Below, one piece after another: positions 826 through 47,005 of a DNA stretch of 58,811 nt. A program made the translations under genes and the position numbers. The stretch lies in assembly GCA_027487675.1 (NCBI GenBank), contig JAIYDD010000230.1:1-58811 (forward strand), in the 5' to 3' direction. This stretch comes from Acetobacteraceae bacterium. GTDB lineage: Bacteria; Pseudomonadota; Alphaproteobacteria; Acetobacterales; Acetobacteraceae. Within the stretch, counting starts at the first letter, position 1, and each line of letters opens with the position of its first letter. Below the pieces are notes generated by a model. That model saw only the letters and a list, made by a program, of their open reading frames with translations. It searched no databases and was not told where the DNA came from.

Positions 826-1968
826 GTGGCGGGAAAACCTTGCCCGAGGATGAGCATCCGCGCGGCGGCCAGGATCGCGGCCGCGTCGCTGCTGTGCCTC
901 CTCTCCCTCCTCCCTGCCGCCGCGGCGTCGGATGTCCGCATCAAGGACATCGCCGATGTCGAGGGCGTGCGGGAGAACCAGCTGGTCGGCTACGGCCTGG
1001 TGGTCGGGCTGAACGGCACCGGCGACCGGCTGCGCAGCGCGGTCTTCACCCGGCAATCGCTGATCGGCGTGCTGGAACGCCTCGGCGTCAACACGCGGGA
1101 CCAGGAAAGGCAGCTCGATACCCGCAACGTCGCGGCCGTGGTGGTCACCGCCAACCTGCCGGCCTTCGCGCGCAGCGGCAGCCGGCTCGACATCACCGTC
1201 TCGACGCTGGGCGACGCGACGAACCTGATGGGTGGGACGCTGCTGGTCACCCCGCTGCTCGGCGCGGATGGCGAGGTCTATGCGGTGGCGCAGGGGCCGG
1301 TGGCGACGGGGGCGATCTCGGCCCGCGGCGCGGCGGGGTCGGTCACCCGCGGCGTGCCGACCGCCGGGCGCATCGCCAATGGCGCGACGGTGGAGCGCGA
1401 GATCCCCTTCCGCTTCGCCGACGGCCAGTCGATCCGCCTGTCCTTGCGCAACCCGGACCTGACCACGGCGCGGCGGATCGCCGCCGCGATCAACCGCGCG
1501 ACGGGCGCGATGGTGGCGCAGGCGACGGATCCGCGCACGGTGAACCTCTCGCTGGCCGGGCGGGACGCGGTGGGGTTCCTGGCCGAGGTCGAGCAGCTGC
1601 GCGTGCAGCCCGATCAGATCGCGCGCGTGGTGATCGAGGAAGCGTCGGGCACCATCGTGATGGGCGCCAATGTCCGCGTCAGCACGGTGGCGATCGCGCA
1701 GGGGAACCTCACCATCCGCATCACCGAGGCGCCGCAGGTCAGCCAGCCCAACCCGCTGGCGCGCGGCGAGACGGTGGTGGTGCCGCGCACCAACATCGAG
1801 GTGGACGACCAGGCCGAGCGGCGGCTCGGCATCCTGCGCGGCGGGGTGACGCTGGATGAGCTGGTGCGCGGGCTGAACGGGCTCGGCGTGGGGCCGCGCG
1901 ACCTGATCACCATCCTGCAGACCATCAAGGCGGCCGGGGCGCTGCAGGCGGAGCTGGAGCTGCGATGA
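826..1968 (+). CDS. flgI: flagellar P-ring protein FlgI precursor
   Basis: This periplasmic protein builds the P ring around the flagellar rod in the peptidoglycan layer. The mature part starts with SDVRIKDIADVEGVRENQLV and continues with GYGLVVGLNGTGD, both hallmarks of FlgI; the C-terminus ends in GVGPRDLITILQ, also typical. A signal peptide with a leucine/alanine core and an AAA-S cleavage site precedes it. I chose the GTG at 826 because a strong GAGGAGG lies a few bases upstream; an in-frame ATG at 850 would also keep the whole signal peptide. Length is about 380 residues, normal for the family. The stop overlaps the next start (ATGA), indicating translational coupling. Confidence 0.96.
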   Translation: MAGKPCPRMSIRAAARIAAASLLCLLSLLPAAAASDVRIKDIADVEGVRENQLVGYGLVVGLNGTGDRLRSAVFTRQSLIGVLERLGVNTRDQERQLDTRNVAAVVVTANLPAFARSGSRLDITVSTLGDATNLMGGTLLVTPLLGADGEVYAVAQGPVATGAISARGAAGSVTRGVPTAGRIANGATVEREIPFRFADGQSIRLSLRNPDLTTARRIAAAINRATGAMVAQATDPRTVNLSLAGRDAVGFLAEVEQLRVQPDQIARVVIEEASGTIVMGANVRVSTVAIAQGNLTIRITEAPQVSQPNPLARGETVVVPRTNIEVDDQAERRLGILRGGVTLDELVRGLNGLGVGPRDLITILQTIKAAGALQAELELR

Positions 1969-2291
1969 TCGGCGCGCCCGCCGCCCCCCCTGCCCCGGCG
2001 CCGGCCGCGCCGCGTGTCGCGCCGGGTGCCGCGCCGGCCGCGCTGGCCCGCGTGGCGCGCGACTTCGAGGCGCAGGCCCTGGCTGCGCTGCTCGGCCCGG
2101 TCTTCGAGACGGTGCCGGCCGACGGCCCCTTCGCCGGCGGCGCGGCGGAACGCCAGTGGCGGCCGATGCTGGTGGACGCGATCGCGAAGGACATGGCGCG
2201 GGCAGGCGGGCTCGGCATCGGCGATGCCGTGCTGCGCGAATTGCTGCGCGCGCAGGAACGGATGACGGCCCCCCAAGGAGACCCCGGATGA
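1965..2291 (+). CDS. flgJ: FlgJ-like rod-binding protein (CheL type, no muramidase domain)
   Basis: The 108-residue product begins with a proline/alanine linker and then carries a Rod-binding domain, with VARDFEAQALAALLGPVFETV followed by a WRPMLVDAIAKDMA helix and LGIGDAVLRELLRAQE. Alphaproteobacterial FlgJ/CheL proteins consist of this domain alone, lacking the C-terminal glucosaminidase of enterobacterial FlgJ, so the short length is expected. It would scaffold rod assembly in the periplasm. The start overlaps the flgI stop by four bases. Its 3' half is duplicated in the following ORF. Confidence 0.82.
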   Translation: MIGAPAAPPAPAPAAPRVAPGAAPAALARVARDFEAQALAALLGPVFETVPADGPFAGGAAERQWRPMLVDAIAKDMARAGGLGIGDAVLRELLRAQERMTAPQGDPG

Positions 2292-2605
2292 TCGAACCCC
2301 TGACGGTCGCGACGCAGCGCCTGGCGGAGGCGCTGCGGGCGGAAAACGAGGCGCTGGCGCGCCTCGACCTGGGCGCGGCGGAACGCGAGCGGCGGCCGAT
2401 GCTGCTGGACGCCATCGCCCGCGACATGGCGCGGGCCGACGGGCCCGGCATCGGCGATGCGGTGCTGCGCGACCTGGTGCGCCTGCGGGACCGGATCACC
2501 CGGCCCCGGGGAGAGCCGACATGATCGAACCCCTGATGGTGGCGGCGCAGCGCCTGGCGGAGGCGCTGCGGGCGGAGAACGAGGCGCTGGCGCGGCTGGA
2601 TCTGA
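2140..2605. repeat. 233-bp tandem duplication spanning flgJ 3' end and flgN 5' end
   Basis: Positions 2140-2372 and roughly 2373-2605 are two copies of one segment at a constant 233-bp offset. Each copy contains the last ~46 codons of the flgJ-like gene followed by the first ~30 codons of the flgN-like gene. Both parental genes carry GCGCGGCGG at the breakpoints, suggesting recombination at that short homology. The copies differ at many bases, so the event is not recent. Confidence 0.85.
2288..2524 (+). CDS. chimeric flgN/flgJ small ORF created by tandem duplication
   Basis: This 78-residue ORF begins MIEPLTVATQRLAEALRAEN, nearly identical to the start of the flgN-like gene downstream. After about residue 31 it switches to RPMLLDAIARDMARADGPGI, nearly identical to the C-terminus of the flgJ-like gene upstream. 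It is exactly what a 233-bp tandem duplication of the flgJ-flgN junction would leave. It has no stop codons, overlaps both neighbours at start and stop, and differs from its parents mostly by conservative changes, so it has been kept open. Whether it is made or does anything is unknown. It would lack a complete rod-binding fold and most of the FlgN helices. Confidence 0.65.
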   Translation: MIEPLTVATQRLAEALRAENEALARLDLGAAERERRPMLLDAIARDMARADGPGIGDAVLRDLVRLRDRITRPRGEPT

Positions 2606-2916
2606 GCGCGGCGGCGGAGCTGGGACGGGCGAAGCGGCTGGCCTCGGACGCCTTCGCCGCGGCCTATGACGCGGCGCAGAAGACGGGCTCGCGGGTGGCC
2701 GAGGCCGACCGGGCGCGGGCGGAAGCCATGGCGCTGCGGCTGCGCGACCTGTCGGCGGAGAACCGGCGGCTGCTGGAGCGGGCGATCGAGCTGCAATCCC
2801 GCGTGATCGAGACGATCGCGGGCGCGGCGAAGCCGGCGGGACCGGCGACCTATGGCGCGCGCGGCGTGCTGCGCGACGCGGCGGGCGGGCCGATGGCGAT
2901 CTCGGCGCGGGGGTAG
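2521..2916 (+). CDS. flgN: FlgN-like flagellar hook-filament junction chaperone
   Basis: The 131-residue protein is almost entirely helical and alanine/leucine/arginine rich: an N-terminal helix with LAEALRAENEALARLD, a middle helix with KRLASDAFAAAYDAAQ, and a C-terminal helix with ENRRLLERAIELQSRVIETI. That layout and length fit FlgN, the cytoplasmic chaperone of hook-filament junction proteins FlgK and FlgL. In alphaproteobacteria a weakly conserved flgN-like gene often follows flgJ/cheL in the flgI operon. Primary sequence conservation of FlgN is low, so the name leans on context. The start overlaps the chimeric ORF by four bases (ATGA). Confidence 0.62.
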   Translation: MIEPLMVAAQRLAEALRAENEALARLDLSAAAELGRAKRLASDAFAAAYDAAQKTGSRVAEADRARAEAMALRLRDLSAENRRLLERAIELQSRVIETIAGAAKPAGPATYGARGVLRDAAGGPMAISARG

Positions 2917-3095
2917 CGACCGGGGGGGGGCGCGGTCCCCGGGGGGAATCGCATGCCCGGAACGCAGCGTGGATGGCGGAGATGTCCATGCCATCTCGCC
3001 CGGGCCGGGAAAGAGGGTGAGGCGCGGGGCTTGCCCGGCGCTCGGCCATTCCCCTGACGTCCCGGCCGGCGCTGCGCGCCCCACCCTCACCCCGA

Positions 3096-3121
3096 CCCTC
3101 TCCCGCCCAGGCGGGAGAGGG
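3096..3121. terminator. 12-bp hairpin after the flagellar operon
   Basis: CCCTCTCCCGCC at 3096-3107 pairs perfectly with GGCGGGAGAGGG at 3110-3121, and the sequence continues AGGTTTTCT, so it could terminate rightward transcription from the flgI operon. The same CCCTCTCCC/GGGAGAGGG core with a CTCACCC lead-in recurs in two hairpins at 46.57-46.76 kb, so it may be an interspersed palindromic repeat rather than a dedicated terminator. Confidence 0.55.
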
Positions 3122-3215
3122 AGGTTTTCTCGAACCCGGCCGACATGCGATGGCCCTGGGCGCGGTCCGGCGGCGCATTGCCCGGCGCCCGCGGCTTCGG
3201 CATAGCAGCGGCCGC

Positions 3216-11957: not shown

Positions 11958-12491
11958 TCAGCTGCCCGCTTCGGGGGGCGGCGCCGATGCCGCGGCGGCG
12001 GCGGCGGCCTTCTTCGCGGCCCGCGTGGCGGCGGCCTTCTTCGCGGCCTCGGAGCGCGCGGAGGGGGCGGGCGCCGGCGGCTCGACGGGCGCGGGCGCGG
12101 CCTTCTTCGGCGCGGCCTTGCGGGCGGCGGGCTTCTTCGCGGCGACGGCCTTCTTCGGCGCGGCCTTCTTGGCGGCCGGCTTCTTCGCGGCGGCGGCCTT
12201 CTTCGGCGCGGCCTTCTTGGCGACGGCCTTCTTCGGCGCGGCCTTCTTGGCAGCGGGCTTCTTCGCGGCGGCGGCCTTCTTCGGCGCGGCCTTCTTCGCG
12301 GCCGGCTTCTTCGCGGCGGCGGCCTTCTTCGGCGCGGCCTTCTTCGCGGCCGGCTTCTTCGCGGCGGCCTTCTTCGGCGCGGCCTTCTTGGCGGCCGGCT
12401 TCTTCGCCGTCTTGCGCGGCGAGGCCATCGCCATCGCCTGGGCGCGCGGCTCGGCGGCCGCTTCGGTCGTCGTCTCGGTGGTGTCGGTCAT
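11958..12491 (-). CDS. histone H1-like nucleoid protein (KAAPKK/AAKKPA repeats)
   Basis: The 177-residue product starts with a short acidic threonine-rich segment, MTDTTETTTEAAAEP, then becomes almost pure lysine, alanine and proline with alternating KKPAAKKAAPKKA units over about residues 30-130. It ends with an alanine/arginine helix and an acidic proline-rich tail. This is the composition of eukaryotic H1 tails and bacterial H1-like proteins such as AlgP and Hc1. It should bind DNA through the lysines and change chromosome packing or transcription. The repeats are encoded by imperfect tandem DNA repeats, so length should vary between strains. The gene stands alone, with a long upstream spacer. 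Confidence 0.85.
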   Translation of the reverse strand: MTDTTETTTEAAAEPRAQAMAMASPRKTAKKPAAKKAAPKKAAAKKPAAKKAAPKKAAAAKKPAAKKAAPKKAAAAKKPAAKKAAPKKAVAKKAAPKKAAAAKKPAAKKAAPKKAVAAKKPAARKAAPKKAAPAPVEPPAPAPSARSEAAKKAAATRAAKKAAAAAAASAPPPEAGS

Positions 12492-25546: not shown

Positions 25547-25734
25547 CCCGCCGCATCCGCCCGCTGGCCGGGCCGCGGCCCGAGTCGCGGCCCCGGTCGC
25601 GGCCCCCGTCTCGGTCGGTATCGGCGTTCCATGGCCGCGACGGTTCCGCGAAATTCCACCTGGCGACCGAAACCGTCTTGCCCGCCGCGCCGCCCTCTGG
25701 TTGTCATCGCGGGCGCGTGCATCGGTGGGGGACC

Positions 25735-26370
25735 ATGGACAAGTTCAAGGAATGGATGGCGGCCAATCCCGTGGGCGGGGTGGTCGCGGTGGCCGTCGTG
25801 ACGGCGCTGGTGACGAGCCTGTTCTTCGAGGCGCTGCGCGGCCCCGGCCCGATGGGCCCGGCCGGCGCGCAGGGCCCGGCCGGCGTCGCCGGCCCTGCGG
25901 GCCCACAGGGTCCGGCCGGTGCGGTCGGCCCGGCCGGTGCGGTCGGCCCGGCCGGTGCGGTGGGTCCGGCTGGTCCGCAGGGCCCGGCCGGCGCCCAGGG
26001 CCCGGCCGGCGCCCAGGGCCCCGCGGGTCCGCAGGGTCCTGCCGGTCCGCAAGGCGTGGCGGGGCCGCAGGGCCCAGCGGGCGAGCGTGGTCCGGCGGGC
26101 GAGGCCGGCGCGCAGGGTCCGGCAGGTCCGGCCGGTCCCCAGGGTCCCGCCGGCGCGGCTGGCGAGCGCGGCCCGGCGGGTGCCGCCGGTCCGGCTGGCG
26201 AGCGCGGCCCTGCAGGCCCGGCCGGCGCTGCCGGGGAGCGTGGTCCGGCGGGTCCCGCCGGCGAACGCGGCCCTGCCGGCCCCGCCGGCGAACGCGGCCC
26301 TGCCGGCCCCGCCGGCGAACGCGGCCCTGCCGGCCCGCAGGGCCCGGCGGGCGAGGCCGCCCCGCGCTGA
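25735..26370 (+). CDS. membrane-anchored collagen-like protein
   Basis: The 211-residue product begins with a short cytoplasmic part ([15 protein letters not shown]), one transmembrane helix ([20 protein letters not shown]), then about 55 uninterrupted Gly-X-Y triplets up to the end. The triplets are mostly GPA, GPQ and GER, for example [18 protein letters not shown] and [16 protein letters not shown]. Proline at X and GER triplets favour a stable triple helix. It would be anchored in the inner membrane with the helix outside. Bacterial collagens usually act as adhesins or spacers. There is no C-terminal capping domain, which is odd since trimerisation domains usually set the register. The ATG at 25735 is preferred over an upstream frame without helix. 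Confidence 0.88.
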
Positions 26371-43703: not shown

Positions 43704-43791
43704 TGCCGGCCGGCGGAGATGCCCCCGCATCTTCCCTCGGCCGACGGCGCTGCGCCTGGCTTCGGCACGCTGCGGGCCTGCCCTTTGGGGT

Positions 43792-43940
43792 CACGCCGAG
43801 GGCGCGCGGTTCGCAGTCGCGCCGAGGGCGCGCGGTTCGCAGTCGCGCCGAGGGCGCGCGGTTCGCAGTCGCGCCGCGGGCGCGCGGTTCGCAGTCGCGC
43901 CGCGGGCGCGCGGTTCGCAGCCACGCCGAGGGCGTGCGGG
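43792..43940. repeat. 26-bp tandem repeat, 5.7 units
   Basis: Units begin at 43792, 43818, 43844, 43870, 43896 and a partial at 43922. The consensus is CGCGCCGAGGGCGCGCGGTT plus CGCAGT. Unit length is not a multiple of three, so it is not coding. It follows the GT2-like gene and precedes the small hypothetical gene at 44042. Rest of the 338-bp spacer: a more AT-rich promoter-like part at 43999-44030. Confidence 0.9.
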
Positions 43941-45871: not shown

Positions 45872-46536
45872 GCGCGGCGGCGAACATGGCGGAGGCGGTA
45901 TCCGCCTTCGACCACCGCATCCTCCCCGCCGGGGGCGGGGAGGGTCGGTCGCTGCTGCTGCTGCACGGCACCGGCGGCGACGAGGCGGACCTGCTGCCGC
46001 TGGGGGCGGAGGTCCTGCCGGGCGCGGCGCTGCTGTCGCCGCGCGGGCAGGTGCTGGAACGCGGCATGCCGCGCTTCTTCCGCCGCCATGCGGAGGGCGT
46101 GCTGGACCGCGAGGACCTGATCGCCCGGGCGCATGGGCTGGCGGATTGGGTGGCGGCGGCGGCGGATCGCTACGGGCTGGACCGGTCGCGCATGGTCGCG
46201 CTGGGCTATTCGAACGGCGCCAACATCGCCGCCGCCATGCTGCTGCTGCGGCCGGGGACGGTCGCGGGGGCGGCGCTGCTGCGGCCGATGATGCTGCCGG
46301 TGACGGCGGCGGAGGCGGCGGGCGGGCCGGGCGGCGCGAAGGTGCTGGTGCTGGCCGGCGCGCAGGACCCGATCGTGCCGGCGGGCGACCCGGAGCGGCT
46401 GGCGGGGCTGCTGCGCGGCGCGGGGGCGCGGGTGGAGGTGGCGGTCGCGCCGCGCGCGGGGCATGGGCTGCTGCCGGAGGAGCTGGCCGCGCTACACGGG
46501 TGGGTCGCGGGCGCGGCGGGCGGAGCAAGTGATTGA
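45868..46536 (+). CDS. mhqD: phospholipase/carboxylesterase, MhqD-like alpha/beta hydrolase
   Basis: The 222-residue hydrolase has LLLLHGTGGDEADLLPLGAE, the nucleophile elbow VALGYSNGANIAAAMLLL, the acid region VLVLAGAQDPIVPAGD, and histidine in APRAGHGLLPEEL, completing a Ser-Asp-His triad. It belongs to the carboxylesterase/phospholipase group that includes MhqD. GTG at 45868 overlaps the dioxygenase stop and is preferred; an in-frame ATG lies at 45886. The pair probably handles quinone-type compounds. The substrate is inferred from the partner gene. Confidence 0.87.
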   Translation: MSAAANMAEAVSAFDHRILPAGGGEGRSLLLLHGTGGDEADLLPLGAEVLPGAALLSPRGQVLERGMPRFFRRHAEGVLDREDLIARAHGLADWVAAAADRYGLDRSRMVALGYSNGANIAAAMLLLRPGTVAGAALLRPMMLPVTAAEAAGGPGGAKVLVLAGAQDPIVPAGDPERLAGLLRGAGARVEVAVAPRAGHGLLPEELAALHGWVAGAAGGASD

Positions 46537-46834
46537 GGACGGTTGCCTTTCCTGACATGCCCCCCTCACCCAACCCTTTCCCCCCTTTGGGGGGAGAGGG
46601 CTTTCTGCGCGGCTTGCGGGCTTTGCACGGATGGGGCGGCGCGCGCTGCGGAAGCCCGGAGCCCCCCGCGTGCAGCGGTGAAAGGGACCGAGGACGACTG
46701 CCCTTCCTCACACGGCCCCCCTCACCCAACCCTCTCCCCCCTTTGGGGGGAGAGGGCTTTCTGCGCGGCTTGCGGGCTTTGCTCGGATGGGGCGGCGCGG
46801 GTGGCGGAAGCCCGGAGCCCCCCCCGCGTGCAGC
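46535..46834. repeat. 143-bp direct repeat, each copy with a CCCTCTCCC hairpin
   Basis: 46535-46677 and 46690-46834 are highly similar at a 155-bp offset. Each contains a hairpin of CCCTNTCCCCCC, TTT loop, GGGGGGAGAGGG, at 46574-46600 and 46730-46756. The second is perfect. Shared flanks include CTTTCTGCGCGGCTTGCGGG and CGGAAGCCCGGAGCCCCCC. They lie right after the mhqD-like gene and may terminate it. A related hairpin is at 3096. Confidence 0.88.
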
Positions 46835-47005
46835 GCAGCAACGCGACGCTTGGCAAGCGCCCCGCGGCCCGTCCAAGATTGTCCCAATGGAAAAGGGGAC
46901 GCGGGCCGCCACGGGCGCCCGCGCGGGTTGAGGAGAGATGATGGCCGGCAGCGACGCTGTCCCGGGCAGGGGCGCCCTTGCGCGAACATCCGCGGGGGCG
47001 ACGCC

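Follow-up and report, generated by a model that had tools for sequence, protein, structure and literature searches.

A 233-nt tandem repeat across the flgJ/flgN overlap and a hybrid open reading frame in an Acetobacteraceae genome

A tandem direct repeat of 233 nt straddles the junction between a flgJ-like and a flgN-like gene in a 58,811-nt stretch of an Acetobacteraceae genome (contig JAIYDD010000230.1; hereafter the window). Between the two genes lies a third open reading frame whose beginning is of flgN type and whose end is of flgJ type. We consider it probable that a tandem duplication with a short, 9-bp junction gave rise to this hybrid, and that the hybrid now serves as a passive translational relay with a dispensable product.

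The flgJ-like gene (1965..2291, + strand) encodes 108 aa with a rod-binding domain only and is the parent of the hybrid tail. It matches PF10135 (E 2e-11, 44.7 bits; cut-off 25.1) and can be aligned with its counterparts in 12 genus relatives. The parent of the hybrid head is the flgN-like gene (2521..2916, + strand; 131 aa), which is 66-72% identical to its counterparts in 12 genus relatives and scores slightly below the PF05130 cut-off of 30.5 (E 2.4e-6, 28.5 bits). Both parents are intact and flank the hybrid ORF (2288..2524, + strand; 78 aa), in which 28 flgN-type codons are followed by 50 flgJ-type codons. The original prediction that this ORF starts like the gene behind it and ends like the gene before it is borne out by alignment with the respective parents: the head aligns with FlgN residues 1-28 and the tail with the C-terminal 50 residues of FlgJ. 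The hybrid gives a partial match to PF10135, covering profile positions 23-50 of 51 at E 0.043 and 14.8 bits (below the cut-off of 25.1), and no match to the FlgN profile PF05130 at E up to 1. Moreover, the hybrid carries Arg in place of the conserved Trp of the FlgJ W-R/Q-P motif, a residue that is Trp in 12/12 genus relatives.

The two copies of the repeat, both on the + strand, occupy positions 2139..2371 (flgJ end and hybrid start) and 2372..2604 (hybrid end and flgN start). They align without gaps at a spacing of 233 and are 84% identical, corresponding to 16% divergence over 233 nt. The TRF array at 2139-2614 has a period of 233, 0% indels and a score of 686, the top score among arrays within the window. 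Measured in 30-nt steps at an offset of 233, identity is 0.63-0.97 inside the repeat and 0.2-0.4 just upstream of it; beyond the repeat end it stays at 0.57-0.63 over ~45 nt and is 0.2-0.5 afterwards (whole-window mean, 0.30). The gapless repeat agrees with the arrangement B C B' C' proposed earlier, in which a segment made up of the flgJ end (B) and the flgN start (C) is duplicated at a 233-bp offset. Of the copies as first delimited (2140-2372 and 2373-2605), the repeat itself is real, while their limits are one base off; the shift is harmless, because the edges fall within a shared 9-mer. This word, GCGCGGCGG, is found on the + strand at the flgJ parental site (2140..2148), at the duplication joint within the hybrid (2373..2381) and at the flgN parental site (2606..2614), and the spacing of the shared 9-mer is 233 in the pre-duplication reckoning. 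Hence both parents carry the predicted word at the join, as a 9-bp microhomology. Recombination between the flgJ and flgN copies of GCGCGGCGG would have duplicated a 233-nt segment containing the conserved Shine-Dalgarno/ATGA junction, with the head of flgN joined to the tail of flgJ at the new joint.

The 233-nt repeat is unusual among the sampled contigs. A repeat survey of 60 further contigs (683,945 of 5,184,480 bases) at a TRF score of at least 150 gave 19 rows with a period of at least 60; the largest period was 162, and 18/19 periods were divisible by three. Of the remaining 228 contigs, the sample comprised the window alone. A repeat-rich genome as a general cause was rejected, as no comparable period occurs among the 60 further contigs sampled. 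Other repeats in the window are a lysine/alanine-rich repeat protein of 177 aa with AAKKPAAKKAAPKK units (11958-12491, - strand), which resembles histone H1-like or AlgP-type proteins, and a collagen-like ORF (25678-26370, + strand; 230 aa) that carries a GPAG/GPQG repeat. A 26-nt unit is repeated 5.8 times at 43790-43939 (95% match), and a 156-nt repeat at 46535-46835 (1.9 copies, 91% match) contains the inverted repeat CCCTCTCCCCCC...GGGGGGAGAGGG. A hairpin-bearing stretch near 3085-3122, downstream of flgN, resembles this last repeat but is shorter.

The length of the hybrid, 237 nt, equals the duplication of 233 nt plus the 4-nt overlap of its parents. Given such an overlap, a hybrid is in frame whenever the length of the duplication is 2 mod 3, and an in-frame hybrid is necessarily open, as both halves are read in their parental frames. 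The hybrid would thus have been born open, with its own start and stop and with a coupled junction on both sides, because the overlap and the length of 2 mod 3 keep both frames. This arithmetic accords with the earlier proposal that the frames line up through the out-of-frame gene overlap.

The ATGA overlaps are intact at both hybrid junctions, on the + strand at 2288..2291 (flgJ/hybrid) and at 2521..2524 (hybrid/flgN), so that the coupled start and stop codons persist, as had been noted. SD-like sequences are retained ahead of both the hybrid start (AAGGAGA; anti-SD duplex, -8.3 kcal/mol) and the flgN start (GGGGAGA; -7.9 kcal/mol), and the corresponding energy for the flgJ start is -7.3 kcal/mol. 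The overlaps and the SD-like sequences together suggest a translation chain flgJ - hybrid - flgN. Most likely the hybrid is a passive relay, in which ribosomes ending flgJ would reinitiate at the hybrid and then at flgN. In the H. volcanii experiments of PMC6728339, reporter translation downstream of such overlaps was lost in 9/9 pairs when a premature stop preceded the overlap. By analogy with these reporter pairs, a stop arising early in the hybrid could reduce flgN output; if so, the frame could be kept open even if the peptide itself serves no purpose.

The two copies differ at 30/153 nt in the flgJ-derived part and at 7/84 nt in the flgN-derived part, which amounts to 30/78 differing codons (23 in the tail and 7 in the head). 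The FlgJ-like tail is released and evolves near neutrality. When the 16 replaced tail codons are compared with the four nearest relatives, the change is assigned to the hybrid in 10 and to the parent in 2, and is not polarised in 4; with all 12 relatives, the figures are 9, 1 and 6. Of the 16 tail residues shared by all 13 parental rows, the hybrid has also lost 4, the FlgJ Trp included. A branch codon model of MG94 type (78 codons) was fitted to a tree of flgJ plus 60 flgN codons, with the hybrid assumed to be sister to the window's parents as the sole placement used. On the hybrid branch, the tail omega is 1.25; fixing it at 1 costs 0.02 lnL units and fixing it at the background value costs 4.4. 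Counting against the reading that we prefer, the silent branch fitted for the hybrid has about half the length of the parental one (0.36 vs 0.77), though equal times for the two cost just 0.2 units. With equal times, the omegas are 0.74 (tail) and 0.16 (head), and setting both at 1 costs 4.6 lnL units.

The FlgN-like head leans towards some constraint. In an alternative reading, the hybrid is a new gene under selection, in which the 28-aa FlgN-derived head is functional, for example by competing with or assisting FlgN, and the tail is a passenger. The codons that differ in the head are 2 replaced and 5 silent, and all 16 residues invariant in the parents are kept (0/16 lost). In addition, the head omega is 0.26, and a model with both halves at omega 1 is 2.7 lnL units worse than one with the tail at 1 and the head free. 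However, fixing the head at 1 with the tail free costs a mere 0.3 lnL units (0.9 at the background value), the ratio of replaced to silent codons in tail and head differs with p = 0.095 (Fisher test), just 28 codons are involved, and translation signals could hold the start region instead. We regard a selected new gene of this kind as unlikely. As for the earlier suggestion of selection on the chimera, the dN/dS comparison has the head leaning to constraint, not decisively, and the tail omega is indistinguishable from 1. The stop-free frame, once taken as a sign of selection, is weak evidence for it. We simulated 15-37 random substitutions, with substitutions as the only kind of change, 3,000 times for each setting: 46-80% of the simulated frames that began from the birth state remained open, as did 61-90% of those that began from the present sequence. 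Since a frame free of selection is kept in 46-90% of cases, we rejected this argument. In the preferred reading, a relay left by the duplication, the cell could probably do without the product of the hybrid, whose FlgJ-derived tail would be drifting.

The operon was also compared with that of related Acetobacteraceae, as the original prediction had proposed; the genus relatives tested carry the single-copy state, and no relative examined has the hybrid. The genus set comprised 15 genomes including the window's own, with a flgN match in 14 and none in G005. The parents are directly joined by an ATGA overlap in 13/13 genus relatives with a readable main-locus junction, among them G006, where the locus is cut by contig ends with the junction whole. 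The overlap is conserved in 75/77 distinct flgJ/flgN loci, five second-locus pairs included, with L081 and L091 as the exceptions. A self-repeat near the junction was found in none of the 12 genus relatives tested, in which the top 80-nt segment over all offsets has 43-48 identities vs 74 in the window. In a motif scan of loci L005-L118 (101 rows, confined to loci that the motifs detect), two junction modules were seen in the window's own locus, L019, only. Some match to the hybrid occurs in 168/397 family genomes; among the matches listed, a full 78-residue match is found in the window's genome only. Long partial matches elsewhere start at residue 1 (e.g., G125, residues 1-71, 50%), and the frames that hold them are as long as a flgN, suggesting that they represent flgN itself. 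Five genus relatives (G001, G007, G008, G010 and G013) carry an additional FlgN-like gene elsewhere (loci L020-L024), which is 39-43% identical to that of the window and likewise has an ATGA overlap with a FlgJ-like gene.

The inter-copy dS of the tail (0.267) and that of the head (0.246) are both exceeded in every comparison of the window's parents with the 12 relatives (dS 0.53-1.18). Because dS is alike in both halves and below that to all 12 relatives, the data fit a single duplication that postdates divergence from the relatives examined. Recent gene conversion as the cause of the more similar head is not favored, as dS is alike in both halves.

An assembly artefact, in which contig ends from two related organisms or strains were joined via a short shared word, appears very improbable. 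The genome is a draft of 288 contigs with a contamination estimate of 1.49, and the joint does sit in a short shared word. However, a genuine second flgJ end should retain the conserved residues, of which 4/16 invariant ones, including the Trp, are lost here; furthermore, a search of the assembly gave no second copy of the locus, and the order flgJ, flgN, ribD-like matches that in the relatives L057 and L060. A ribD-like match lies farther downstream in seven other relatives, and none was found in L066. An older, unrelated three-gene arrangement, with a middle gene that merely resembles its neighbors, has nothing in its favor beyond the existence of the third ORF and can be dismissed given the constant gapless 233-nt offset with each half aligning with its neighbor, the absence from the relatives examined, and an inter-copy dS below the dS to each of the 12 relatives.

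The short-junction duplication that we favor also relates to a phase bias of the words shared across ATGA overlaps. At 74 loci, words of at least 9 nt that the flgJ end shares with the first 300 nt of flgN are spaced 2 mod 3 in 228/273 cases, counts that are non-independent since the loci are related. For 72 ATGA pairs of the window's own genome (60 contigs plus the window, own locus excluded; pairs chosen by a rule of ORF length and GC3, not by annotation), the spacing of 9-mers is 2 mod 3 in 215/287, and for words of 8, 10 and 12 nt in 542/794, 87/112 and 8/9, respectively. With permuted partners, the count is 194/254; the bias persists, and its cause is therefore codon usage, not kinship of the neighbors. 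The window's own parents share four 9-mers, all in the 2 mod 3 phase. The exact GCGCGGCGG pair is present in only 4/74 loci, which counts against the explanation that we favor.

Since the shared 9-mers are mostly in the hybrid-giving phase, in-frame birth is the expected outcome, and the phase bias would raise the birth rate of hybrids. A broader proposal, which we put forward tentatively and with more doubt than belief, is that the ATGA overlaps of GC-rich operons act as birthplaces of chimeric genes. Codon usage would place the short words shared by neighboring genes in one codon phase, so that most microhomology duplications across such an overlap would lead to an open, in-frame, RBS-bearing and doubly coupled hybrid. 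In this scenario, the locus described here would represent a case that has become established in nature, its head perhaps selected. The phase bias gives a testable rule, namely that such duplications in GC-rich genomes should yield in-frame hybrids in about three-quarters of cases, not one-third. The locus illustrates cleanly how an operon can gain a third, ready-to-translate frame in one step, and both parents as well as single-copy relatives are on hand for comparing the hybrid.

This kind of event is already known; the flgJ/flgN arrangement and the phase rule were not found in the literature searched. Searches for flgJ with flgN in Acetobacteraceae, or for the two with tandem duplication, found no papers, and no title among the matches listed (titles and abstract beginnings) dealt with a phase bias of microhomology. 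Compared with the FlgJ rod-binding protein and the FlgN chaperone, the hybrid contains part of each only and scores below both profile cut-offs. It shares with termination-reinitiation pairs (PMC6728339) the stop/start overlap ATGA, present here at both ends of the hybrid; coupling was tested there with reporter constructs of H. volcanii and E. coli pairs bearing premature stops, whereas here it is inferred from sequence. The closest precedent among the literature matches listed is the S. aureus nusG'-'sigH chimera, which, like rplK'-'sigH, arises by short-junction tandem duplication (PMC3486894). As in these chimeras, a short direct repeat is found at the joint and at both ends (8 bp there, 9 bp here), the end of the upstream gene follows in frame on the start and RBS of the downstream gene, and both parent genes are retained (PMC3486894). 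The S. aureus duplication was 1210 bp in one clone, lab-selected and reversible, and its fusion protein was seen by Western blot, whereas the flgN-flgJ hybrid is known from sequence, with a duplication of 233 nt that has diverged by 16%. Unlike the sigH case (PMC3486894), the flgN-flgJ duplication spans and copies an ATGA overlap.
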